A DNA stretch of 64,000 nucleotides, from contig NZ_JAUHLN010000001.1 of assembly GCF_030412265.1 (NCBI RefSeq), positions 1 to 64,000 of the forward strand. Direction: 5' to 3'. The notes beneath the pieces are model-generated. The model saw only the letters and a list, made by a program, of their open reading frames with translations. It searched no databases and was not told the DNA's origin. This document shows, piece by piece, positions 18,043 to 56,227 of this stretch. The stretch's first letter is position 1; each line of letters begins with the position of its first letter. The DNA is from Fictibacillus terranigra. Lineage in GTDB: Bacteria > Bacillota > Bacilli > Bacillales > Fictibacillaceae. The position numbers and the translations under genes were made by a program.

Positions 18043-18897
18043 ATGAAACATCCTTTTTCACGCTTATTCGGCATCGGTGAAAAAAATCAGACAGCTGAAG
18101 CTGAAGAGAAAAACGAAAATGAAGAAATACTGCAACTCCAGGTAAAAGATATCCATCCGAATCAATTTCAGCCTCGTACCGTTTTCATAGATGAAAGAAT
18201 TGAAGAGTTATCACAAACTATTGAGACCCATGGAATCATCCAGCCGATTGTTGTCCGGCCATCGGGGGAACGATCCTATGAAATCATCGCCGGAGAGCGG
18301 CGGTGGAGAGCAGTACAAAAACTGGGCTGGGAGACCATTCCGGCTATTATAAAGGAATTTGATGACTCGCAGACAGCCTCGGTCGCACTGATCGAGAATC
18401 TACAGAGAGAAGAGCTTACCGCTATTGAGGAAGCTATGGCCTATGCGAAGCTTCTTGAGATCCATGGCCTTACCCAGGAGAGCCTTGCTCAAAAACTTGG
18501 AAAAGGGCAATCTACGGTCGCCAACAAGCTCCGTCTGCTTAAACTTCCCCAGCCAATCCAGGATGCATTATTGCTGAAGCAGATCACAGAGAGACATGCA
18601 CGAGCTCTCATCATTCTAAAATCTCCAGATAAACAGGAAGCAATTCTTCAGGAAATCATAGAAAAGCATCTGAACGTCAAACAAACAGAAGAACGTGTTA
18701 AACGGATGATTGAAGGAGAAATGGCCGAGAAGAAACCTGCTGCAAAGAGGAAATCATTCAGTAAGGATACTCGGCTTGCCATTAATACCGTCCGTCAATC
18801 GGTAGACATGGTTCTAAAGAGCGGACTCACGATCAACACAGAAGAAGAGGATCATGAGGAATTTTATCAATTCACGATTCGGATTCCGAAAAAATAG
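18043..18897 (+). CDS. noc: Nucleoid occlusion protein Noc
   Basis: 284 residues, a ParB paralogue. Noc binds its own DNA sites and the membrane and keeps the division septum away from the nucleoid. The N-terminus carries a basic amphipathic stretch ([12 protein letters not shown]) like the membrane-targeting helix of Noc. The CTPase region shows AGERRWRA and [12 protein letters not shown], followed by the helix-turn-helix around [20 protein letters not shown]. Position upstream of parA and the divergent HTH separate it from ParB. No clear Noc-binding site (ATTTCCCGGGAAAT type) was seen in the window. Confidence 0.92.
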
Positions 18898-19056: not shown

Positions 19057-19830
19057 GTGGCTAAAACCATTGCAATTGCCAATCAAAAGGGTGGTGTTGG
19101 AAAAACAACTACATCCGTGAACCTCGGAGCATGTCTGGCTTATTTCGGCAAAAAGGTTTTACTTGTTGATATAGACCCGCAGGGAAATGCTACGAGCGGT
19201 GTGGGAGTTGACAAAGGCGATATTGATCAATGTATTTATAACGTGCTTGTTGACGATGCAGAAGTGAAGGACATCATTTTAGAAACGATTTGTGAAGGAT
19301 TACATATATTACCCTCTACGATACAGCTGGCCGGTGCAGAAATTGAGCTGGTGCCTACGATATCAAGGGAAGTAAGACTGAAAAGAGCTCTTTCTTCGGT
19401 CAGCAGCCAATATGATTTCATCATCATCGACTGTCCTCCCTCATTGGGATTGCTGACGATTAACTCACTTACAGCAGCGGATGCAGTGCTCATCCCAGTG
19501 CAATGTGAATACTATGCACTGGAAGGTCTGAGCCAGCTGTTAAACACCGTCCGGCTTGTGCAGAAGCATTTGAACACGGACCTTACGATTGACGGTGTGC
19601 TTTTGACGATGCTTGATGCCAGAACTAATTTAGGAATCCAGGTTATTGAAGAAGTGAAAAAATACTTTCAGGATAAAGTCTATACCACCATTATCCCAAG
19701 GAACGTTCGTCTTTCTGAAGCGCCAAGCCATGGAAAACCGATTATTATTTACGACCCTAAATCCAGAGGTGCAGAGGTTTATTTAGAATTAGCGAAGGAA
19801 GTGATTGGCAGTGGCGAAAGGGTTAGGTAA
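19057..19830 (+). CDS. parA: Chromosome partition ATPase ParA (Soj)
   Basis: 257 residues. A deviant Walker A motif KGGVGKTTTS lies at residues 10-19, and Walker motifs LLVDIDPQGNAT and IIIDCPPSLGLL follow, the ParA/MinD signature. It binds DNA nonspecifically when ATP-bound and works with ParB and parS in origin segregation; Soj also controls DnaA activity in Bacillus. Starts with GTG at 19057. parB overlaps its end by 20 nt, so the pair is coupled. Confidence 0.96.
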   Translation: MAKTIAIANQKGGVGKTTTSVNLGACLAYFGKKVLLVDIDPQGNATSGVGVDKGDIDQCIYNVLVDDAEVKDIILETICEGLHILPSTIQLAGAEIELVPTISREVRLKRALSSVSSQYDFIIIDCPPSLGLLTINSLTAADAVLIPVQCEYYALEGLSQLLNTVRLVQKHLNTDLTIDGVLLTMLDARTNLGIQVIEEVKKYFQDKVYTTIIPRNVRLSEAPSHGKPIIIYDPKSRGAEVYLELAKEVIGSGERVR

Positions 19831-20656
19831 AGGAATTAATGCATTCTTTCCGGGTACAGAACTTGATAAAGAGGATGCTGTTACTGAAATTAACGTAAAG
19901 GATTTACGCCCCAACCCCTATCAACCGAGGAAAGTGTTTAATGAATCTGCCATTGCAGAATTGAGGGACTCTATTAAGGAGCACGGAGTTCTTCAGCCTA
20001 TAATCGCAAGAAAAAGCATAAAAGGCTATGAGATTGTAGTAGGTGAACGCCGTTTCAGGGCAGCGAAAGAAGCAGGGCTGAAAACAATGCCTGTCATCAT
20101 CCGTGATTTTACGGAACAAAAGATGATGGAGATCGCCCTCATCGAGAATCTGCAGCGCGAAGATCTGAATCCGATCGAAGAAGCGCAGGCTTATCAAAAA
20201 CTGATGGAGCACCTTAAGCTTACACAGGAAGAACTGGCTGGCAGGGTAGGAAAAAGCAGGCCTCATATTGCCAACTTTGTCCGTTTGCTGCAGCTTCCGG
20301 AGCCCGTTCAGGAAATGCTGTCCAAAGGCGCTTTATCCATGGGCCATGGAAGAGCATTGCTTGGATTGAAAAAGAAAGCAAAAATGCAGGCTGTCGTTGA
20401 AAAATGTGTGAATGACAAGTTGAACGTCCGACAGCTTGAGAAACTGATCCAGCAGGTCAATCAGAATGTTTCACGTGAAACAACGAAAAAAGGCCAGGAA
20501 AAAAACATCTTCCTGATTGAAAAAGAATCGACCCTCCGGGATCATTTTGGAACTTCCGTTTCCATTAAACGAACAAAGCGGAAGGGCAAGATAGAAATTG
20601 AGTTTTTCTCCGATGAAGATTTAGAACGGATACTGGATCTGATTGGAAAGCAGTAA
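19811..20656 (+). CDS. parB: Chromosome partition protein ParB (Spo0J)
   Basis: 281 residues. N-terminal MAKGLGKGINAFF, CTP-binding GERRFRAAKEAG and ENLQREDLNPIEEA, then the helix-turn-helix LTQEELAGRVGKSRPHIANFVR. It loads at parS and slides as a CTP clamp, recruiting SMC. The GTG at 19811 is chosen because the family N-terminus begins there and GAAGGAAG lies upstream; the frame opens two codons earlier with TTG. A perfect parS site lies inside the coding region at 20467-20482, as in Bacillus subtilis. Confidence 0.96.
   Translation: MAKGLGKGINAFFPGTELDKEDAVTEINVKDLRPNPYQPRKVFNESAIAELRDSIKEHGVLQPIIARKSIKGYEIVVGERRFRAAKEAGLKTMPVIIRDFTEQKMMEIALIENLQREDLNPIEEAQAYQKLMEHLKLTQEELAGRVGKSRPHIANFVRLLQLPEPVQEMLSKGALSMGHGRALLGLKKKAKMQAVVEKCVNDKLNVRQLEKLIQQVNQNVSRETTKKGQEKNIFLIEKESTLRDHFGTSVSIKRTKRKGKIEIEFFSDEDLERILDLIGKQ
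20467..20482. promoter_or_regulatory. parS: parS site inside parB (perfect)
   Basis: TGTTTCACGTGAAACA, exact consensus palindrome, within the parB reading frame where it encodes part of NVSRETT. Confidence 0.95.
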
Positions 20657-42764: not shown

Positions 42765-43244
42765 GTGAATATCTTGGTAGTAACTGTTGGCAAACTGAAA
42801 GAAAAGTATTTAAAAATGGGAATTGATGAATATGTAAAGCGGCTGGGGCCCTATGCAAAAATAGAAATCATTGAAGTAGCTGACGAAAAAGCGCCTGAAA
42901 ATTTGAGTGATCAGGAGATGCAGATGGTGAAAAAAGCAGAAGGCGATCGGATCCTTGCCAAAATTCCTCAGGACGCACATGTGGTTGCGATGGCAATTGA
43001 GGGGGAGCTGGTCTCATCAGAGGATCTTGCGAAGAACCTGGACGAGCTCGCGACCTACGGTAAAAGCAAAGTGGCCTTTGTCATTGGAGGGTCTTTGGGT
43101 CTGAGTGAAGAGGTCATGAAGCGGGCAAATAAAAAGATTTCGTTCGGCAGGATCACCTATCCGCACCAGCTGATGAAGCTTGTATTGGTGGAGCAGATCT
43201 ATCGGGCGTTTCGGATTAATCGCGGGGAACCGTACCACAAATAA
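42765..43244 (+). CDS. rlmH: 23S rRNA m3-pseudouridine-1915 methyltransferase RlmH
   Basis: 159 residues, SPOUT-fold methyltransferase. VAMAIEGE and [13 protein letters not shown] form the SAM knot and the C-terminus ends [11 protein letters not shown], the family signature. It methylates pseudouridine 1915 of 23S rRNA. GTG start at 42765 with AAAAGGAG. In staphylococci the same gene is the SCCmec attachment site; no inserted element is seen here. Confidence 0.96.
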
Positions 43245-45582: not shown

Positions 45583-46650
45583 ATGGTTAAGGAATCCATT
45601 TATGGATTAACATTTGAACAGCTGGCTGCCTGGCTGTTGGAACGCGGCCATAGACCGTATCATGCCTCCCTTGTTTGGGAGTATCTATATAGAAAGCGCG
45701 TCACGTCTTTTTCCGAAATGACTGATGTTAAAAAAGAAATCATCAGTTTGCTGTCAGATCGCTTCGAGTTCCAGACGATGCAGCAGCACGTTAAACAAGA
45801 ATCAGAAGACGGCACTATCAAGTTCTTATTCAAGCTTCGGGATGGCAACCTGATCGAAACCGTCTTAATGAAGCATAAATACGGCTTGTCGGTTTGTGTA
45901 ACGACCCAAGTCGGATGCAATATCGGCTGCAGTTTCTGCGCGAGCGGTTTATTGGCAAAAAGCCGTGACTTGTCGAGCGGCGAGATTGTTGAGCAGATCA
46001 TGAACGTCCAGCTTCATCTGGATCAACGCCACCAGGATGAGAGAGTCAGCCACATCGTGGTCATGGGTATTGGTGAACCGTTCGATAACTTCGAGAACAT
46101 GATCGATTTCATTAAAGTGGTTACCGATCAAAAAGGCCTTGCGATCGGATCAAGGCGCATCACGGTTTCTACGAGCGGTTTGGCCAGCAAGATCCGTGAG
46201 TTTGCGGATACGGGCTTAAACGTCAACCTGGCGCTTTCACTTCATGCACCGAACAATGAACTTCGTACAAGAATCATGAAGATTAACAAGGCGGTTCCGC
46301 TTGAACCGTTGATGGAAGCGGTCGATTATTATGTGGAGACCACAAACCGCAGAATTACGATCGAATACATTCTGTTAAGGGATGTGAACGATCACACGGA
46401 AGAAGCAGAACAACTGGCCGATCTATTCCAGGATAAAAAGCAGAGGGTCTATGTCAACTTGATTCCGTATAATCCGGTGGACGAACATGCCCAGTACCAA
46501 AGAAGTGAGCAGGATTCCGTCCTGGCGTTTTATGACACGCTAAAAAAACGCGGCATCAACTGCAAAATTCGCCAGGAGCACGGTACAGACATTGACGCGG
46601 CATGCGGACAGCTTAGAAGCAAGCAGATTAAAAAAGAAAAAGCGCAATAA
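45583..46650 (+). CDS. RlmN-like radical-SAM RNA methyltransferase
   Basis: 355 residues. The radical-SAM cluster motif [12 protein letters not shown], a GIGEPFDNF motif and C-terminal [12 protein letters not shown] with the resolving Cys place it in the RlmN/Cfr family. GEP-type spacing (GIGEPFDN) is RlmN-like, not Cfr-like (GMGEALAN). RlmN methylates C2 of A2503 in 23S rRNA and A37 in some tRNAs. Bacillus subtilis has its rlmN elsewhere (yloN), so this may be a paralogue; symbol left blank. Start ATG at 45583 (AAAGAGGGTAAC). Confidence 0.88.
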
Positions 46651-47344: not shown

Positions 47345-49006
47345 TTACGCCTGTTGCGTATTAGCGATAGAAATCGGAGTTTTATAGCCGAGTGAATGAA
47401 AATCTTCAATTTTAGCGTTCGACTGATCAACGACGAGTCCCTTGTTCCCCTTTTCGCACACCGCTTGAACATCACTGATTTTAATGGACTGTATATGAGG
47501 ACCGATATGAACCGCAGTTGGTGCAGAGTTTCGTATCTTTACCTTCCGGATTTCGACCGAGTCTGCTCCGTGAGGGCCGCCAAATACTTTAATATCCGCA
47601 CCGGCTGTTTTAAAATTCCTGATGTTCAGATCATGCAAAATAATGTTCCTCGATCGGTACTGGACGGCGATGATTGGCTCCCCCCGGTAATCATACTCAG
47701 GGTCGCCAATGACGGTAAAATGGTTGATGGCCACGTTTTTATAAGCAGAGATCACCATTGCCCGGGGTGTTGAGTCCTTGTATAAAGGAGTCCGGATAGG
47801 TGAAACCGCCACGATATGGCTCGCTTTAATATTAAAAGCTGTCTTCGATTCGGGGTCCGTTTCAATGTGATGGCCGATATGGCGAAAATTGTAGGCACGG
47901 TTGTCATTAATCGAGATATGCCCGACGATCTGAGTGTTGCTGGCGGCTGCAGAGTTATGGTGCGCTTTAATTTCAACACCGCCGAAGCACCGGGTAGTCG
48001 AATTGTTAAGAAGCATCACATTTCGGGAGCCATCGTCCACTTCGATGCCGTTGGAATTCGAGAATCCTTCCTTATGGGATCGTCCGCTTGGATCACACAG
48101 ATGGCAGTTTGAAATGAGAATATTAACGCTGTGATGAGTCGTGATTCCGTCATCACCAAACCCATAGCCGTTCAGCTGGTCGAGCCAGATGTAGCGGCTG
48201 CTCCTGCGGGCGCGGGTCGCATCCCCGAAATAAGTATATATGGCAGATGAAACATCAAAACAATGCAGACCGGGATTGATGCCTTCTACCTCTTTTACCC
48301 AGCCGAATGTAACATGAGCATACGTCAGACAGCTGGACTGGTTATTTCCTGATGCTGTCTTTTTGTAAGGATCCAAACGTTCGACATTCCAATCCAGGCT
48401 CATCCCCTGTACATAAATATGATGGTTGCCCCTCCAGTGGCTGGCGTTCGTTACGAGCTGCCGGCCTCTAGGTGCCTTATCATGCAGCTTGATAGTTGTT
48501 AGTCCTTTACCGGCACCGATCAACATCGTCCATGACGGCAGCCGAATCCCACGTGTGATATACACGCCTGCAGGAATAAGCACCTTTGCTCTGCCGTGCC
48601 CGATGGCCTTTCTGAAAGCTTCTGTATCATCAGTAATGCCGTCTCCAGCTGCTCCGAAATCCCGAACATTTACCTCTTGTTCGATCTCCTGCTCAAGGTG
48701 GATCAGTGCCTGATCGAGCTTCTTTTTCCAATCGGGATAAATGCCTCCCTCCTCATCTGTTTCTATTTGAGGCAGCGGGTCTTGATTTTTATGGGATGAA
48801 GTGGACAGCAGAAATTTAGGCAGGCCATGGAGCACGTTTTTTAATGAAAAAGAAGAAGTATGGGCCGGCTCAGGCAAAGGGTTCAGTTCCTGGAAAAGGG
48901 TATCTGTCTCGGCGAGCAGGTTTTGTAAACCATCCTTATACTCTGAAAATGAACCAATGAGCTCTTTGTTGGTTAGCGGATTATGATCCTTATTTAAACT
49001 AAGCAT
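47345..49006 (-). CDS. Right-handed beta-helix / pectate-lyase-like protein
   Basis: 553 residues. An N-terminal helical or coiled-coil region (to about residue 115) is followed by NVRDFGAAGDGITDDTEAFR, the start of a pectate_lyase_3-type beta helix, and then irregular parallel-strand repeats to the end. Such folds occur in polysaccharide lyases, spore-coat and phage tail-spike proteins. No signal peptide is visible, so secretion through Sec is not supported. ATG at 49006 (GGGGTG 9 nt upstream). Function not assignable. Confidence 0.78.
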   Translation of the reverse strand: MLSLNKDHNPLTNKELIGSFSEYKDGLQNLLAETDTLFQELNPLPEPAHTSSFSLKNVLHGLPKFLLSTSSHKNQDPLPQIETDEEGGIYPDWKKKLDQALIHLEQEIEQEVNVRDFGAAGDGITDDTEAFRKAIGHGRAKVLIPAGVYITRGIRLPSWTMLIGAGKGLTTIKLHDKAPRGRQLVTNASHWRGNHHIYVQGMSLDWNVERLDPYKKTASGNNQSSCLTYAHVTFGWVKEVEGINPGLHCFDVSSAIYTYFGDATRARRSSRYIWLDQLNGYGFGDDGITTHHSVNILISNCHLCDPSGRSHKEGFSNSNGIEVDDGSRNVMLLNNSTTRCFGGVEIKAHHNSAAASNTQIVGHISINDNRAYNFRHIGHHIETDPESKTAFNIKASHIVAVSPIRTPLYKDSTPRAMVISAYKNVAINHFTVIGDPEYDYRGEPIIAVQYRSRNIILHDLNIRNFKTAGADIKVFGGPHGADSVEIRKVKIRNSAPTAVHIGPHIQSIKISDVQAVCEKGNKGLVVDQSNAKIEDFHSLGYKTPISIANTQQA

Positions 49007-49110
49007 GCTGACAATCACCCCAAGCAAAGGTAAATAGTTTTTATTTCAACATTATGTACTATTCCCGTTCATATTCCCAGCTTAATCGTGTTTCTCTCTG
49101 ACAAAGAAAA

Positions 49111-49129
49111 TACCCCTGTAAAAGGGGCA
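49111..49129 (-). terminator. Terminator after sspH
   Basis: Stem GCCCCTTTTAC-AGGGGT type on the minus strand (CCCCT / AGGGG), followed by ATTTTC, immediately after the sspH stop. Confidence 0.55.
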
Positions 49130-49130
49130 T

Positions 49131-49310
49131 TTATTGTTCCACTAAACTGTTGAGAGAAACCTGCTGCTCATTTTCTGGCTGTCCGAGCGGATAGATCCTG
49201 GCCGTTTCTCCCTGCTCGTCGACATGCTGGATATAAATCGGAACGCCATCATATGTAACGTTGGCCATCACCGGGGATGATGCGATTTCCTGAGCACGTT
49301 GTTTGTTCAT
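49131..49310 (-). CDS. sspH: Small acid-soluble spore protein H
   Basis: 59 residues, below usual ORF cut-offs. The frame reads MNKQRAQEIASSPVMANVTY and continues with DGVPIYIQHVDEQGETARIY, a clear match to the SspH family of minor forespore proteins. ATG with AAAAGGAGG. A sigma-G type promoter (AGTATA 49359-49364, 18-bp spacer, CATATTA 49334-49340) lies upstream on the minus strand, fitting forespore expression. Confidence 0.92.
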   Translation of the reverse strand: MNKQRAQEIASSPVMANVTYDGVPIYIQHVDEQGETARIYPLGQPENEQQVSLNSLVEQ

Positions 49311-49333
49311 CGTAAAAACCTCCTTTTCGCCCT

Positions 49334-49364
49334 TAATATGAACGGGAACGCCGGGTTTTATACT
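49334..49364 (-). promoter_or_regulatory. Sigma-G-type promoter of sspH
   Basis: Minus strand -35 AGTATA and -10 CATATTA with an 18-bp spacer; the -10 matches the CATACTA consensus at 6 of 7 positions. Confidence 0.6.
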
Positions 49365-49417
49365 TTTAGCTTGCGAGTCTTGATAAAATTAAATGAATGT
49401 GTCAGATTTGGTCGAAT

Positions 49418-50705
49418 TCAGTGGAGTTTATCCAGTTCGATAATAAAATCGCGATTTTCGATAATATAAATGACCCGGCATGAATCTTTCACAAAGAATG
49501 CAAAAAGGAAGCTGCATTTAAACATTTTTAGCGTTAATACGAAAAAAAGCACCAGAGTTTTCCTCCGGTGCTTCCTTATTACGACGCCAAAAAGACGGGC
49601 AAATTTCATGATCGGGTAGGAGATGAATCCAAGGGCGATCCCGTTCGCGATACTTGAAGTGAGCGGCATGCTGACAATGACAAGAAACGCAGGGAAGGCT
49701 TCATCGAAGTCATTCTAGTCGATTTCCGATATACTTTTAATCATGAAGCTGCCGACGATGATCAAGCTTGGTGCTGTAATCGCTGGTACAGAGGATACGG
49801 CGCTCACGAGCGGGCTGAAGAATGCCGTAATCAAGAACAAGACGACAACGGTGACCCCTGTTAATCCGGTCTTCCCTCCAGAACCAACTACAGCGGATGA
49901 TTCAACGGAAGCTGCGGTCGGGCTTGTTCCAAACATGGCTCCAATCGTTGTTCCGATGGAATCCGCAAAAAGGCGCTGCCTGCACGATCCAGCTTTCCAT
50001 TCTTCAAAAGTCCTGCCTGGCGTACGATGCCAAGAAGAGCACCGGTTGTGTCAAAAAGCATAACAAGCAGGAAGGAGAACACAACGCTGTACAGTCCGAA
50101 ATGTATGACATCGGCGACCGATTGAACAGGGTTGCCGACAAGTACTCCTTCAGGAAGCTGAGGAACCGAAACGAAGCCTTTATCGAACTTTAATTTTCCT
50201 GTGAAGAAGGCGATGAATCCAGTGACGATCATGCCGATAAAAAGGGCGCCCTGAACATTGAGGGTCATCAATGTAATCGTGATGACGATCCCGATCAACG
50301 TAAGAGCCACTTTCGGGGAGCTAAAGTTACCAAGTGTCACCAGGTTCGTCGGGTGATCGGTGACAATGCCGGAGAGGCGCAGTCCGATAAATGTAATAAA
50401 AAGACCGATTCCGGCCGCTATCGCATGCTTTAAATTTGAAGGTATCGCGTTGATCAATTTTGTCCGAAACGACGTAAGGGATAAAATAAGGAAGATGATT
50501 CCCGTGAGAAATACGGCTGAAAAACCAACGGCATAAGGGATGTTGTGGCTGCTGATCACCGAGTAGGCAAAATAAGCATTCAATCCCATGGAAGGTCCGA
50601 TGATGATCGGATAGTTTGCGAAAAAAGCCATACATAATGTACCGATGACGGTCGCGATGATCGTAGTTACTTTACCATAAAACGGCCTCGGGCGGCTGCA
50701 GGAAG
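49418..50705 (-). pseudogene. Decayed adenine/guanine/hypoxanthine permease (AzgA/NCS2 type)
   Basis: Family patterns run through broken frames: NYPIIIGPSMGLNAYFAY, GIVTDHPTNLVTLG and GTSPTAASVESSAVVGSGG. Three lesions are visible. A 1-nt loss in a run of A (49967-49971 on the plus strand) shifts the frame after GSAF. An in-frame TAG at 49715-49717 replaces the Trp expected in EIDWNDF. The N-terminal ~70 residues are missing or scrambled beyond about 50640. The C-terminal frame then runs on past the expected end. Nearby sequence on the plus side belongs to the ParM-like gene, so the 5' loss may mark a rearrangement. Confidence 0.85.
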
Positions 50706-50960
50706 TTTTTCAAAAGGTTCAGTCTGGAGGAATTTCTTAAAAAAATAGGAGGTGTTATTCTAGAATTGTCAAATATTATTAAGCATAGGAGTGTCGGAAT
50801 CTACCAAAATCGTTCGAAGTTCTATATAGTAGAACTTCAGCCATGTATATTCCAGTGCCACTATTTTTCAGGAAATATCGATACATAAAGCAGTATATGG
50901 CTGAGTAATACCTTGTGCCACCAGGTAGTTTTAGATAAAATAATAGGAGGAATAGATACT
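50706..50960 (+). promoter_or_regulatory. Upstream region of the ParM-like gene with inverted repeats
   Basis: A 9-bp inverted repeat GAAGTTCTA / TAGAACTTC with a TATAG loop lies at 50816-50838. A second, wider one, CAGCCAT (50838-50844) and ATGGCTG (50897-50903), begins where the first ends. GTGCCAC occurs twice nearby. In ParMR systems the centromere and operator sit upstream of the first gene; these repeats are candidates, but no regular iteron array is visible. Confidence 0.5.
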
Positions 50961-52157
50961 ATGCAATATCAATTTTTAGTAGGCAATGATAACGGAAACA
51001 GTGAGCATGATATTTACATTGATGGCCGCTTGTTTCAGCAGCCGAACGTAAACTGTGCAGTGGACCAGCTGCCATGGAGTGAAGAACAGGCCCCTGAAGC
51101 GATTGTCCGTAATCTTCAGGATAACCTGATCGTAACCATCGATTCCCCGGCTGCACGTGCGGGTATGTATTATGTAGGAAAGTTTGCGCTTGAAAGCGGT
51201 GAGCTCATCGAAAACATTCAGGTCGGCGTAGATTACAAGTATGAAATTGATCTGCCGATCGTCAACACGCTCGCTCAAATCGCAGCAGTAGCGGTACAAA
51301 AAGGTTTTGCAGAAGAGAAAAAGCTTCCCGCATCCATTGAAGTCATGGTGGATATGGCGACCGCACTTCCCATCACACAGCATTCTGATGAATCCGCAGC
51401 AAAATTTGAGAAGCGTTTCATGAACGGCCCTCACCACGTGACGGTCCATGTTGGAAAACAGCGTGTTGCAGTAAAAGTAGAATTTGAATTTGTAAAAGTT
51501 ATTCCTGAAGCAACGCCAGTTACCTTCTCTCTTCAAAAGGATGAAGACGGAAACTGGAGAAAAGGCGATATTTTTGACCAATTTATTGAAGCATACGATA
51601 TGCCGAAGAACTTCAACGGCAGCTTCTTTAAAAACAAAAAAATCCTTCATACAGATATCGGTGACGGTTCTACTGAGTACCCGATCACAGAAGGAAACAA
51701 ATTTTTGCGCCAGTTCGTTCATGGATCCAACCATGGTGCAGGGTATGCGATCGAGGAAGCACTCAGTGAGTTCAACAGGCTGATTCACCTTCCTGACAGC
51801 CCGCGTCAATTTTTCAGTGACGTGATCAAGAACCCGAACCATAAATACCATGCGCGTGCGATGAAAACATTGAAAAGACCGCTTGAAGGGCAGGCTCGCC
51901 AAATTATTAACAACATCCGCAAGCAGCTTACTAAAGCGAGAAATGAAATCGATTTGATTTGTGTTTATGGAGGCGGAAGCATCTTAATGAACCCAATTCT
52001 TTCTCCAATGCTTAAGGAGCTTTGTGATGAGCGCGAGATTCAGCTTCTGTATATTCCTGCAAAATACGCAGTGACGATGAATGCAAACGGATTGAATGCA
52101 TTCGTACGCGGAAAAATCTACGGTGCGATCAAGGATCGTGCGAAACAGCCAGTTTAA
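50961..52157 (+). CDS. ParM/StbA-type actin-like ATPase (chromosomal)
   Basis: 398 residues. The phosphate-1 region is VGNDNGNSEHD, phosphate-2 is LHTDIGDGSTEYPI, and the adenosine motif is VYGGGSILMNP, in the order of the actin/ParM fold. Family members polymerise and push plasmid copies apart. ATG at 50961 with AGGAGG 10 nt upstream. It is followed after 32 bp by a small RHH-like acidic protein, the gene order of ParM-ParR. No plasmid genes are seen around it and it lies about 40 kb from oriC; a chromosomal role is inferred. Confidence 0.85.
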   Translation: MQYQFLVGNDNGNSEHDIYIDGRLFQQPNVNCAVDQLPWSEEQAPEAIVRNLQDNLIVTIDSPAARAGMYYVGKFALESGELIENIQVGVDYKYEIDLPIVNTLAQIAAVAVQKGFAEEKKLPASIEVMVDMATALPITQHSDESAAKFEKRFMNGPHHVTVHVGKQRVAVKVEFEFVKVIPEATPVTFSLQKDEDGNWRKGDIFDQFIEAYDMPKNFNGSFFKNKKILHTDIGDGSTEYPITEGNKFLRQFVHGSNHGAGYAIEEALSEFNRLIHLPDSPRQFFSDVIKNPNHKYHARAMKTLKRPLEGQARQIINNIRKQLTKARNEIDLICVYGGGSILMNPILSPMLKELCDEREIQLLYIPAKYAVTMNANGLNAFVRGKIYGAIKDRAKQPV

Positions 52158-52189
52158 GTCTCTCATTTAAATGGTAAGGGGGTGTGATG

Positions 52190-52504
52190 ATGAAGAAACA
52201 AAAAAAGCCAGGCGACAATATTTCGTTAAAGACGAAGAAGAATGAATCCCCCGCCATTATTGACTGGATCAACTCGCAAACGAACCTGATGGACTCGATC
52301 CGTTATTTGGTCGAGAACGAGATCAAAGCGAACGGAGTCCGTAATCTGCAGCAGCATGTTCCCGCCGACCGCGGATTCTCGTTAGAGGATGCTGCAGGCG
52401 GACAGGGCAACAGCTATCAGGAAGGACCGAAACATTCTCCAGAGTATGAAGATGTCATCGATGAAGAAGAGATCGATGAGGAGGATATCGAGTCCTGGAC
52501 ATAA
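52190..52504 (+). CDS. Small ParR-like adaptor candidate
   Basis: 104 residues. A basic N-terminus with NISLKTKK (a possible DNA-contact beta strand), two helices (SPAIIDWINSQ and MDSIRYLVENEIKANG), consistent with a ribbon-helix-helix fold, then a flexible region and a very acidic tail (VIDEEEIDEEDIESW). ParR proteins have an N-terminal RHH and a C-terminal ParM-binding tail, so the fit is good but the sequence alone is weak. Start: of GTG 52184, ATG 52187 and ATG 52190 the last is best spaced from AAGGGGG. Confidence 0.75.
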   Translation: MKKQKKPGDNISLKTKKNESPAIIDWINSQTNLMDSIRYLVENEIKANGVRNLQQHVPADRGFSLEDAAGGQGNSYQEGPKHSPEYEDVIDEEEIDEEDIESWT

Positions 52505-52527
52505 CCGATAATAGATTCCATATAAGA

Positions 52528-52565
52528 AAGCCGGTTTCAGAGATTTACTCTGAGCCGGCTTTTTT
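52528..52565 (+). terminator. Terminator after the ParM/ParR-like pair
   Basis: Stem AAGCCGG...CAGAG / CTCTG...CCGGCTT with T-run, so the two genes form a closed transcription unit. Confidence 0.8.
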
Positions 52566-52729
52566 GCGCTGGCTGCCTAGAAAAGTGGCCCCAACAGAAC
52601 AAATTGATGCCCGATCTCCCGCCTTCCTATTAAAATACGCCTCTGGTCGTAGTGGAAAATATAGCCGGGGTACATTATAGGAAAACAGGAACGCAGGTAA
52701 GCTAGAGATAAGAAAGGAGGTAACAACAA

Positions 52730-53068
52730 ATGAAGAAATTTGGTTTGTTTGTACTCGGAGGAATTGCAGCGGTCACCCTGCTGGCGAACATCGGTCCCAT
52801 GATTGGACTCGCGATCGGATTGGTGATTTTATATTTTGCGGTTAAGGGCTTTATGAAGGCCGAAACAACGTCCAAGAAAATGTTGTGGGGGGCTGTCGGC
52901 GTGATTGCAGCATGTGCAGCCATCTCCAATGTGCCTGCCCTTTTAGGTGTCCTCGCCCTCTATGTGCTGTACCTGGTGTATAAAGGATGGAACAAAAGTG
53001 AAACAGAGGCAACTGACGACCCATTCGTAAACTTCGAAAAACAATGGGCAGAAATGAACAGAAACTAA
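52730..53068 (+). CDS. liaI: LiaI-like membrane protein
   Basis: 112 residues with three or four hydrophobic segments and the soluble C-terminus DPFVNFEKQWAEMNRN. In Bacillus subtilis LiaI anchors LiaH at the membrane under envelope stress. ATG with AAAGGAGG. It heads the liaIHFSR operon. LiaI proteins are poorly conserved, so the name relies mainly on position. Confidence 0.78.
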   Translation: MKKFGLFVLGGIAAVTLLANIGPMIGLAIGLVILYFAVKGFMKAETTSKKMLWGAVGVIAACAAISNVPALLGVLALYVLYLVYKGWNKSETEATDDPFVNFEKQWAEMNRN

Positions 53069-53086
53069 TAAAAGGAGAGAATGAAC

Positions 53087-53731
53087 ATGAGTACACTTTT
53101 TACTAGAATCAAAAATTCCATAGCGGCTGATTTTCACGAGATGCTCGATCAGAAGGAGCAGAAGAATCCCCTCTCGCTGCTAAACCAATATTTGCGCCAA
53201 TGTGAACAAGAAACGGACCGTGTACGTAAACTGGTGGAACGCCAATTTATACTTACCGAAGAATTTACAAAAGAGTACAGAGAAGCGAAGGCGTATGCTG
53301 AGAAAAGAAAGAAGCAGGCGGATCTGGCTCTTCAGGCTGGAGAGAGCGACCTGCATGAGTTTGCAGTGAACGAACAGCAGCGGTATGATGAGCGTGCAGC
53401 CCGACTGCATGAAGCTAAATTAGAAGCGAAGCGTGAACTGGAAACACTGGAGCAAAAGTTTGAACAGATGAAGCATAAGCTGAAAGATATGTATGTAAAG
53501 CGTATGGAGCTGATGGGACGTGAAAATATCGCCCGTGCCCATCGAGGAATGAACAAAATTCTGGATGCGGGAACAGGTTCGAAGCCAGGCCTCAGATTCG
53601 ACGAGATGGAACGCTATTTAGAGCGGCTGGAGCATCAGGTGAATACGGATTATCACTTCAATACCATCGATGATCGGTTTGCCCAGCTTGAAAAACAATG
53701 GAAAAAAGAAGAAAAATCTACGATTTCATAA
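53087..53731 (+). CDS. liaH: PspA/IM30 family protein LiaH
   Basis: 214 residues. MSTLFTRIKNSIAADFHEML at the start and a long coiled coil through most of the protein, the PspA/LiaH fold that assembles into ring- or ESCRT-III-like scaffolds on stressed membranes. ATG at 53087 (AAAGGAG 9 nt upstream); an ATG two codons earlier lies too near the ribosome site. Second gene of the lia operon. Confidence 0.9.
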   Translation: MSTLFTRIKNSIAADFHEMLDQKEQKNPLSLLNQYLRQCEQETDRVRKLVERQFILTEEFTKEYREAKAYAEKRKKQADLALQAGESDLHEFAVNEQQRYDERAARLHEAKLEAKRELETLEQKFEQMKHKLKDMYVKRMELMGRENIARAHRGMNKILDAGTGSKPGLRFDEMERYLERLEHQVNTDYHFNTIDDRFAQLEKQWKKEEKSTIS

Positions 53732-53824
53732 TTTGAAAATGGTATTCTAAAAGGCGTAGGGCACTGCGCCTTTTAGGACGTGTACCATGAACAGTCAAAA
53801 TGAGAGAGATAGAAGGGGTGCGCC

Positions 53825-54559
53825 ATGTTTAACGGTAAAAAAACAGAAATGATCAGCTGGCTTGGTTTGATTGGTGTACTGCTTGTTCTGCTTGAACTTT
53901 CATTTCGTGGAGGCGAATTGATTTTCATCTTTGCTCTCATGGCTGGCTGCATCTATATTGGCAGAAAAAAAGTGCCTCGGACATTCGGGAAAGTGCTGTA
54001 TTGGGGCGGATGGTTTGGATTGATCATCACAGTGCTTAACATGATCGCCTTCAAGTTTGTTATGGTCGCGGTCCTTGTTTATCTGGTCATCCAGTTTTAT
54101 CAGTCTAAAAAAAGTCCGTCAGTCATTGAACCGGTGGTCCAAAAAGAGGAGGATTCCCGGCTGTCCGAGTCACTTTTAACGAAACAGCCGCTGTTTAAAA
54201 ATATACTTTACGGCAGGCAGCAAACCCCGGACCATGTGTACGAATGGAGTGATATCAACATTCAGTGCGGGATCGGAGACAGCATCATCGACCTGAGCAA
54301 TACTGTTTTGCCGGATGGAGAATCAGTCATTGCTATACGCAATGTTGCCGGAAACATTAAAATTCTTGTGCCTTATGAAGCAGCTGTAAGTGTTCATCAT
54401 TCTGTGCTGGCAGGCAGCACAACGGTTTTTCAGCTTCATGAATCAAAAATCTTCAATCAGCTCTTTCATTTTCAAACGGAGAACTACCATGAGGCCCAGC
54501 AAAGAATTAAGATTGTTACATCCATGGTGGTCGGAGATCTAGAGGTGAAGCGGACATGA
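53825..54559 (+). CDS. liaF: LiaF, negative regulator of LiaRS
   Basis: 244 residues. Four N-terminal membrane helices in the first 95 residues and a C-terminal soluble domain with IQCGIGDSIIDLSNT and VAGNIKILVPYEAAVSVHHS, typical of LiaF/VraT. It restrains LiaS in unstressed cells. It overlaps liaS by 4 nt. liaG, present between liaH and liaF in Bacillus subtilis, is absent. Confidence 0.9.
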   Translation: MFNGKKTEMISWLGLIGVLLVLLELSFRGGELIFIFALMAGCIYIGRKKVPRTFGKVLYWGGWFGLIITVLNMIAFKFVMVAVLVYLVIQFYQSKKSPSVIEPVVQKEEDSRLSESLLTKQPLFKNILYGRQQTPDHVYEWSDINIQCGIGDSIIDLSNTVLPDGESVIAIRNVAGNIKILVPYEAAVSVHHSVLAGSTTVFQLHESKIFNQLFHFQTENYHEAQQRIKIVTSMVVGDLEVKRT

Positions 54560-55602
54560 GTATCTTGTTGAGAAGTGTCCTCCTGTCCATCGCCGTATCT
54601 CTGTTGACCGCCATACTGGTTTTCATTGCTGTGTATAGGGTGAATCCTTTCCCGAATTGGGCTTACCTATGGGATCGGCAGCTGTTCGGTCTCCCATTTG
54701 TTCTGGTCGTGCCAGCTGCCAGTTTGGTTCTTGGGGTGTTTTTCGGTTTGCTGCATGGGTCTGCTGTCCGCAGGCAGCTCAAACAAGTGGAAGAAGCCCT
54801 GCGTGAGATGGAGAACGGCAGGTCCTTTCATCTTCCTCTGCAAGCACAGGGGACAGAAATGGATGCGCTGTGGAAAAGAATGAAAAATGTTCAGCGCCAG
54901 GTTACGGATCAGGCCAGAGCCTCACAAAAGCTGGCGAACGAAAAAGCTGAAGATCAGGAGAAAATCATTCAAGAGATAATCTCGAGGGAGAGGCATCGCT
55001 TAGCCCGTGAACTGCATGATTCGGTAAGCCAGCAGCTTTTTGCCGCGTCCATGCTGATGTCAGCCATAAACGAGCCAAGGGAATCTGAAGAAGTCCCTGA
55101 GAACAGACAGCTGAAACTGGTGGAACAAATGATCCACCAGTCACAGCTCGAGATGAGAGCCCTGCTGCTCCACCTCCGCCCTGCCGCTCTAAAAGGAAAG
55201 TCATTGCAGGAAGGAATTAAAGAACTGCTAGCGGAGCTCGTTCAAAAAGTGCCGATAGAGATTCATACAAAAATAGAAGAAATGCCGCTCGACAAGGGGG
55301 TGGAGGACCACCTGTTCAGAATTCTGCAGGAATCCGTTTCGAACACACTGAGGCATGCGAAAGCTACCTCTCTTGAAATCCTACTGATCGAACGTGAGGG
55401 ATTAATCATTCTTCGCGTGGCTGACAATGGGGTAGGATTTGCTTTGGATGAGGATAAAGCCGGGTCCTACGGGCTTCAAAACATGCAGGAAAGAGCGCTG
55501 GAGATCGGCGGCGCGATGAAAGTGGTAAGTCTGCCCGACAAAGGGACTCGGCTGGAAGTAAAAGTTCCAGTGATTTCGGTGGAGGATGGTAAAAATGATT
55601 AA
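54556..55602 (+). CDS. liaS: Sensor histidine kinase LiaS
   Basis: 348 residues. Two N-terminal membrane helices enclosing a very short external loop (intramembrane-sensing type), HAMP-like linker, and HisKA_3 with His154 in [15 protein letters not shown], then HATPase with [12 protein letters not shown] and [10 protein letters not shown]. It responds to lipid-II-interfering antibiotics in Bacillus. It overlaps liaF by 4 nt and liaR by 8 nt. Confidence 0.93.
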
Positions 55603-56227
55603 AGTATTGTTTGCGGACGATCATGAAATGGTAAGAATCGGTGTTTCATCCTATCTTTCAGCGCAGCCAGATCTTGAGGTGGTCGGTGAGGCCGAGAATG
55701 GGAAGAAAGCGGTTGAACAGGCATTGGAGCTCCGTCCTGATGTTATTTTAATGGACCTGGTCATGAATGAAATGGACGGAATAGAAGCGACGAAAAAAAT
55801 TATTGAGCAATGGCCGGAAGCGAAGATCATCATTGTGACCAGTTTCCTCGATGATGAAAAAGTGTACCCCGCGATTGAAGCAGGAGCAGTAAGCTATATG
55901 CTCAAGACTTCAAAAGCGAGTGAGATCGCTGAAGCGGTAAGAGCTACATATCACGGCCAGTCTGTTCTTGAACCCGAGGTGACAGGCAAGATGATGAACC
56001 GTATGCGCCAAAAAAATCATCAGAAGCCCCATGAAGAGCTCACGAGCCGCGAACTGGAGGTTCTCCTCTTAATGACAGAAGGAAAATCCAATCAGGAGAT
56101 TGCCGACCAGTTATTTATCGCACAAAAAACCGTTAAAGTACATGTGAGCAATATTTTAAACAAGCTTGATGTTCAGGATAGAACCCAGGCCGTTATCTAT
56201 GCCTTTAAGCATTCACTGGTCAAGTAG
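55595..56227 (+). CDS. liaR: Response regulator LiaR
   Basis: 210 residues, NarL/LuxR class. Receiver domain [17 protein letters not shown] with Asp54 (LMDLVM), C-terminal helix-turn-helix [20 protein letters not shown] and [14 protein letters not shown]. It activates liaIH in Bacillus subtilis. ATG at 55595, with GGAGG 9 nt upstream inside the end of liaS; an ATG three codons earlier is alternative. Confidence 0.94.

Follow-up and report, generated by a model that had tools for sequence, protein, structure and literature searches.

The window, a stretch of 64,000 nucleotides of Fictibacillus terranigra DNA, contained a two-gene cassette encoding an actin-like ParM protein and a small ParR-like protein (Table 1). 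This cassette, referred to as type A, was single-copy in the genome and shared its 1.56-Mb contig with dnaA; it was not carried by a plasmid that it segregates. The gene order past dnaA was mnmE, mnmG, noc, the ParA-family gene, parB, walR and walK, followed by a trypsin/PDZ protease gene, presumably yyxA, and by YycH, YycI, rlmH, the RlmN-family gene and the pectate-lyase-like gene on the minus strand. Then came a broken xanthine permease gene, the ParMR pair (50961-52504) and lia-type genes. The RlmN-family protein scored over the RlmN cut-off; Cfr models also matched, under their cut-off. The xanthine/uracil permease gene (49715-50635, minus strand) was split into pieces of 247 and 73 aa, and a 432-aa ORF occupied this position in the loci L035, L036 and L038. 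Immediately 3' of the cassette, positions 52730-56227 encoded an lmo0954-family protein, a LiaH-like protein, LiaF, a LiaS-like kinase and a response regulator. Family scans of the main ORFs from 34.4 to 63.3 kb found no replication, mobility or phage genes, and Rfam gave no match in 49000-53200. An earlier note, made from the DNA letters, had described a ParM-type actin and a ParR-like adaptor with a very acidic tail near oriC, 32 bp apart, closed by a terminator, accompanied by ParABS and free of replication or mobility genes. All of this was borne out: the pair by motifs, ParM/Alp folds, a partition PHROG and adjacency, and its setting by dnaA, the ParA-family gene, parB, the hairpin behind the cassette and the scan of the main ORFs. 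The compact repeat site upstream of the pair and the different ParMR of sister genera at the same locus were absent from that note.

Table 1. Features of the window, with position, strand and basis of the assignment.
Feature	Position	Strand	Basis or remark
dnaA	9136-10491	-	Family scan of main ORFs
noc	18043-18897		Family scan
ParA-family gene	19057-19830		NCBIfam matches under cut-off
parB	19805-20656		Family scan
rlmH	42765-43244	+	Landmark between oriC and the cassette; synteny
RlmN-family gene	45583-46650	+	Landmark that recurs at some loci of both types
Pectate-lyase-like gene	47345-49027	-	Landmark common to four sister-genus type B loci
Palindrome GAAGTTCTATATAGTAGAACTTC, 9-bp arms	50816-50838	.	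Alignment of Fictibacillus upstreams
Putative ParR site / compact parC	50895-50935	+	About four 10-bp repeats, TATGGCTGAG-TAATACCTTG-TGCCACCAGG-TAGTTTTAGA
Possible -35/-10, TTGTGC-17-TAAAAT	50913-50941	+	Read from sequence
ParM/Alp-type actin-like protein, type A, 398 aa	50961-52157	+	Motifs, folds, partition PHROG
ParR-like adaptor, 104 aa	52190-52504	+	Alignment of 20; AlphaFold2 helices, low confidence; plasmid homologues
Intrinsic terminator closing the cassette	52527-52562	+	Hairpin -22 kcal/mol, z -6.8

ParM contained the motifs VGNDNGNSEHD (residues 7-17), DIGDGSTEYPI (232-242) and YGGGSIL (336-342), all three invariant across 20 aligned rows including the window. Pfam matches to ALP_N (5.5e-5) and MreB-like_C (2.5e-4) remained under the curated cut-offs, and a PHROG annotated as 'partition protein' matched at 2.5e-22. 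The Pfam family Alp7A_like_C (PF22128) gave no match to the type A ParM at E<=0.1, and a sequence search of the PDB returned nothing. The AlphaFold2 model was modest, with a mean pLDDT of 61. Its best PDB match in Foldseek was Alp7A (E 2.7e-10), which was also top-ranked by VIA-align (Z 16.6, rmsd 6.3, 318 aligned residues). Also among the nearest were ParM of B. thuringiensis (Z 14.1, rmsd 6.4, 302 aligned), the CorM filament of Anabaena (Z 13.9, rmsd 5.3, 282 aligned), pCBH ParM (Z 13.3, rmsd 5.5, 284 aligned) and Dh-cParM1 (8x1i; Z 13.3, rmsd 6.5, 306 aligned). Eukaryotic actins and MreB scored about 10-11, below the ParM/Alp folds. The motifs and the predicted model point to an actin fold with the ParM/Alp-type core of ParMRC (type II) partition systems. 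Compared with three other Fictibacillus, the dN/dS of ParM was 0.043 (G006), 0.023 (L034) and 0.022 (L035); for L038 synonymous sites were saturated. In the G006 comparison, yyxA reached 0.042, walK and parB 0.028 each, rlmH 0.024, parA 0.006 and ParR 0.110. These ratios indicate that ParM is subject to purifying selection.

The ParR gene most likely starts at the ATG at 52190, with a GTG at 52184 as a possible start. Its product combined a conserved N-terminal half holding the segment NISLKTKK, a variable-length linker and, at the C-terminus, a conserved acidic peptide, ..DEEEIDEEDIESWT. The final 29 residues included 13 D/E and one K/R, and the end followed the pattern (I/F)D(D/E)(D/E)DI(E/D/K)(S/A/T)W plus one residue, with DI[EDK][SAT]W as motif. 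NISLKTKK, a putative DNA-binding segment, was invariant in the 20 aligned ParR rows. Its alternating polar and hydrophobic residues fit the pattern expected of a DNA-contacting ribbon-helix-helix (RHH) strand, RHH being the putative fold of ParR. Helices were predicted at residues 21-28, 33-48 and 97-103 in a weak AlphaFold2 model (pLDDT 61, pTM 0.25). Foldseek and Pfam gave no match to ParR, and a PDB sequence search yielded one chance-level match only. The ParR gene adjoined ParM in 19 of 19 named loci and in 20 of 20 further regions; the named loci leave out L005, L006, L008 and L009, whose genomes are represented by other loci. Among 91 plasmid records with a ParM match, the ParR match lay directly downstream of parM in all seven records that matched ParR. 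Of nine tails from outside type A, a tryptophan stood near the end in L201, L010, L011 and L223 and F or Y instead in L202, L224, L225, L226 and L227.

Upstream of parM, the compact repeat site overlapped the possible promoter, for which similar sequence was seen in six aligned upstreams and which was missing from the list of a consensus scan. The palindrome was identical in five of six aligned Fictibacillus upstreams, window included; the sixth had one base changed and an altered end. A counterpart of the compact site was present in many Paenibacillaceae upstreams. With a hold-out matrix built from 17 non-Fictibacillus sites only and p values from 1000 letter shuffles, the window site scored 16.8, a value reached by 0 of 1000 shuffles. 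The same spot was found in five of seven Fictibacillus upstreams (p<=0.001), and the other two gave p values of 0.015 and 0.003 with a register displaced by 20 bp. Among 12 other held-out upstreams, two stood at 0 of 1000 shuffles, seven had p values of 0.005-0.037 and three (L041, L042, L043) had no type A site by this matrix. These three, L051 and L052 were the five upstreams with a site score below 8. The window contained one copy of the compact site, with 0 in 100 shuffles. Neither a long repeat array upstream of type A nor a cluster in the window that could be a remnant of the type B array described below was found. A strict 40-bp matrix was derived from Fictibacillus sites, that of G006 among them. 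It gave one strong match of 66.0 (next 4.3) in the 400 kb surrounding the G006 oriC and none, with a best score of 11.8, in the 400 kb at 2.0-2.4 Mb; the strict type A site thus occurred once in 800 kb of this genome. Since there was a single strict site and no long array, it is doubtful that one site could carry a full ParR cap. A looser matrix gave 24.1, 21.0, 15.8 and 13.8 near oriC of G006 and at best 14.1 in the control 400 kb. Looser matches were commoner around oriC than in the control, with the best ones in coding sequence: three of the top four lay inside ORFs, which we take to be metG and rpoC. The remaining one was intergenic (L155 at about 15898, about 104 kb left of oriC in G006). 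Dispersed centromere sites for type A were rejected on the single strong match of the strict matrix and the location of the looser ones mostly in ORFs. The compact site is an argument for retained DNA binding, with an operator as its minimal role.

Type A was present in all seven genomes of the genus, own included, with named Fictibacillus orthologues of ParM being 84-98% identical. Across the family, eight of 34 genomes carried it at 84-100% identity, namely the seven of the genus and G008. In addition, G006 and G026 held ParM relatives of 45% identity, whose contigs, 192 and 132 kb long, may be plasmids. In G006, a ParR relative of 39% identity adjoined this second ParM (C4, 141985-143169). 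In the class sample, four of 398 genomes matched at E<=1e-60, own included. One of them was G426, whose ParM was located on a 78,992-base contig, the putative plasmid pBbsI. The family of G417 (39 genomes) had two matches, one being this putative plasmid contig. In the group of G453, placed in Paenibacillaceae by its named loci, 74 of 394 genomes matched ParM at E<=1e-40, 65 of them full-length at 71-77%, one broken (G612) and eight at 31-44%. Type A was absent from 328 of the 394 genomes. In G612, the type A ParM lay in pieces at about 1852-3039 of contig C18. With ParR as query, 11 of 60 relatives matched, and the match in G031 was a 42% fragment with stops.

Phylogeny by maximum likelihood (68 ParM rows) united the 58 chromosomal rows of type A in a single clade (100/99), whose sister (94/87) was the ParM of the putative Brevibacillus plasmid in G426. 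Other plasmid ParMs fell outside on long branches; the tree was rooted at the midpoint, where long branches meet, and its deeper order is unsure. These sequences are best read as descending from a plasmid and having long resided on the chromosome, most simply after a single settlement there of a plasmid-borne pair. The plasmid type proposed by the earlier note would thereby hold for the ancestry of the pair. Inside the clade, Fictibacillus grouped with G417 and G248, which belong to two other families, so transfer between families is possible. Plasmid ancestry would also suit an integrated plasmid or phage that persists as an inert remnant; the earlier note had suggested a domesticated plasmid or phage remnant. 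An inert remnant was rejected and is very improbable: ParM showed a dN/dS of 0.022-0.043 and persisted across families, 65 of 66 clade members of the G453 group were uninterrupted, the scanned neighbours included no plasmid or phage gene, the chromosomal rows form a clade, no phage carried a ParM relative at E<=1e-4 and no viral contig was confirmed with six peptide patterns. A further explanation is a chromosomal incompatibility or helper device, in which ParM and ParR would act in trans to help or disturb incoming ParMR plasmids. The relatives on 91 plasmid records and the 45% relative on the 192-kb contig of G006 are in keeping with such a device, but only one of the 91 records exceeded 60% identity, so matching plasmids are rare in the collection and the explanation is improbable.

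For type A, positions were mapped in 76 relatives and the own genome, 77 in all. In 47, dnaA and ParM shared a contig; in the remaining 30 the position was not readable. In all 47, ParM lay to the left of dnaA on the opposite strand, transcribed away from dnaA, at 28-359 kb (median 128 kb); these counts span related genomes, which are not independent, and of two DnaA matches over the cut-off in G773, G774, G794 and G810 the better-scoring one was taken. The earlier note had asked whether the pair is conserved at this position in relatives, which is the case, and whether it resides only on mobile elements there, which it does not, with type A on the dnaA contig in 46 of 76 relatives. The order parAB-walK-yyxA-rlmH-ParMR was shared by the window, G006, G248, G417, G775, G760 and G777, rlmH and ParMR being separated by about 0.3 to 56 kb. 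The ParMR of G476 and G487 was 28 kb from dnaA, with parAB between them and no match to walK, yyxA or rlmH in the interval. A third ParM-like family (29-31% identical to type B) was situated 0.84-1.16 Mb to the right of dnaA in G760, G773, G462 and G775, its position being computed in four of 13 genomes with such a match. Since this family also keeps its place, the constant position of type A may be inherited synteny, and position alone does not prove function. The cassette could be an autonomous system that sits in old origin-proximal synteny and uses the compact site as operator only; its function, for instance in sporulation or stress, would then require no tether to the origin. A single-copy site that overlaps a possible promoter would suit this explanation, as would the positional stability of the third family elsewhere. 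It is nonetheless rather unlikely, because neighbours vary in Paenibacillaceae while side and strand persist, and the arrangement in G476 demonstrates that the gene order is not always the same.

Most other genomes of the family carried a different chromosomal ParMR, type B, which is Alp7A-like. Its ParM had 386-408 aa and matched Pfam Alp7A_like_C at 1.2e-34; in 20 of 20 regions it was followed by a partner of 186-208 aa. The N-terminus of the partner looks, by eye, like that of an RHH protein, and Pfam found nothing in it. Within the family (n=34), eight genomes held type A (at least 84%), 25 held type B, none held both and one held neither (Fisher p 5e-7 for exclusion). The split follows genera, so the mutual exclusion may be one event. 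G026 combined type B with the 45% type A relative. Type B at 76% identity or above occurred in none of the 54 type A genomes tested, 13 of which had a relative of 29-39%. Type B was considered in 56 genomes. In all 41 with dnaA on the type B contig it lay, like type A, to the left of dnaA and on the opposite strand, at 32-281 kb; 15 genomes were not readable, and five of the 56 type B assignments came from one search alone. Upstream of type B, strict counting yielded 1-9 TGTNNACA boxes per 400 bp at 20 loci, with at least two at 19 of them, and shuffles had a mean of about 0.1 and maxima of 2-3; relaxed counts count palindromes twice. From their sequence, the boxes are a parC-like, centromere-like array beside oriC. 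The type B loci L181-L200 each comprised the Alp7A-like ParM, the partner of 186-208 aa and TGTNNACA boxes, left of dnaA where readable.

In four sister-genus genomes (L183-L186), type B followed RlmN-like and pectate-lyase-like genes, just as type A does in Fictibacillus; in the window, these two landmarks stand on the oriC-facing side of type A. These landmarks were not found within 19 kb in L181, L182 and L187 of another sister genus. Shortly upstream, rlmH accompanied both type A (L122, L123) and type B (L190, L197, L198). The two ParMs were 24-30% identical in partial alignments and aligned at 96% in a profile comparison. Common ancestry of the two ParRs was rejected, with a profile comparison probability of 0.9% and no alignment. 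Because the ParMs are only 24-30% identical and the ParRs do not align, the best reading, as opposed to a proven event, is that one cassette replaced the other in place.

Chromosome-encoded ParMR (cParMR) systems have already been published as Dh-cParM1, Cb-cParM and Bt-cParM in PMC12270681, a 2025 paper whose main text leaves the function of chromosomal ParMRs open. Type A has the features described there, with adjacent ParM and ParR genes on the chromosome, conservation within lineages and ParA/ParB also present, and Dh-cParM1 was among the folds nearest to its ParM. The main text of that paper contains neither 'Paenibacillus' nor 'Fictibacillus', has 'oriC' only in a reference title and is not known to describe an exchange of two types at one locus such as that of types A and B. 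Among the open-licence papers listed as matches, none reported the type A system near oriC. Chromosomal ParMRs being known, what stands out here is the apparent cassette exchange beside oriC. Alp7A (PDB 5ec0) was the best structural match of the type A ParM, but the two were 19% identical over the aligned part, and the Pfam match to Alp7A_like_C was a property of type B and not of type A. The nearest Firmicute plasmid ParMR was pBbsI of Brevibacillus brevis, with 66.5% ParM identity and a ParR homologue downstream whose tail ends in SDSDIEAWA. It differs in being a 79-kb plasmid with the pair behind a MerR gene and a six-copy repeat family upstream of that gene.

A repurposed cytoskeleton is the main rival explanation. 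The plasmid-derived pair would shape the cell or its envelope, as FcmBC does in filamentous cyanobacteria; in PMC12645912, this chromosomal pair of plasmid partitioning ancestry has a ParM-like gene followed by a ParR-like one and affects cell shape at the membrane. CorM of Anabaena, ranking fourth among the folds, would also suit this explanation; as far as PDB entry 9rmi goes, the likeness of CorM/CorR to type A consists in the fold of CorM alone. The lia-type envelope-stress genes directly downstream would also fit, but among 39 type A loci they stood beside the cassette in Fictibacillus loci only. Unlike FcmBC, type A keeps signs of DNA binding. With NISLKTKK invariant and the promoter site found again across families, this capacity seems to have been kept. 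The type B cassette at the shared locus has, moreover, a centromere-like array. A role in cell shape is considered unlikely on this balance.

The preferred reading, with a probability of roughly 45%, is that type A is a domesticated chromosomal ParMR of plasmid ancestry, a DNA-tethered actin machine that would act on the origin-proximal chromosome. The compact 10-bp repeats of the parMR promoter would be the binding site of ParR dimers, providing autoregulation as well as a tether, and the acidic DIESW tail of ParR would engage the end of the ParM filament. Growth and shrinkage of the polymerised filament could then position or separate the oriC flank, with ParMR acting beside ParABS and not instead of it. 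A wider proposal is more tentative and well short of an even chance: Bacillales and relatives may possess a second actin-based origin machine to the left of oriC, alongside ParABS, whose engine was exchanged in place, with an array in type B and a compact site in type A. Two ParMR types that seemingly take each other's place at a single origin-proximal locus of spore-formers represent a natural experiment, and the apparent exchange beside oriC gives a testable prediction, a function in origin handling. A chromosomal ParMR beside oriC, at a spot occupied in close relatives by a different version, hints at an unrecognised role in the handling of the origin region.
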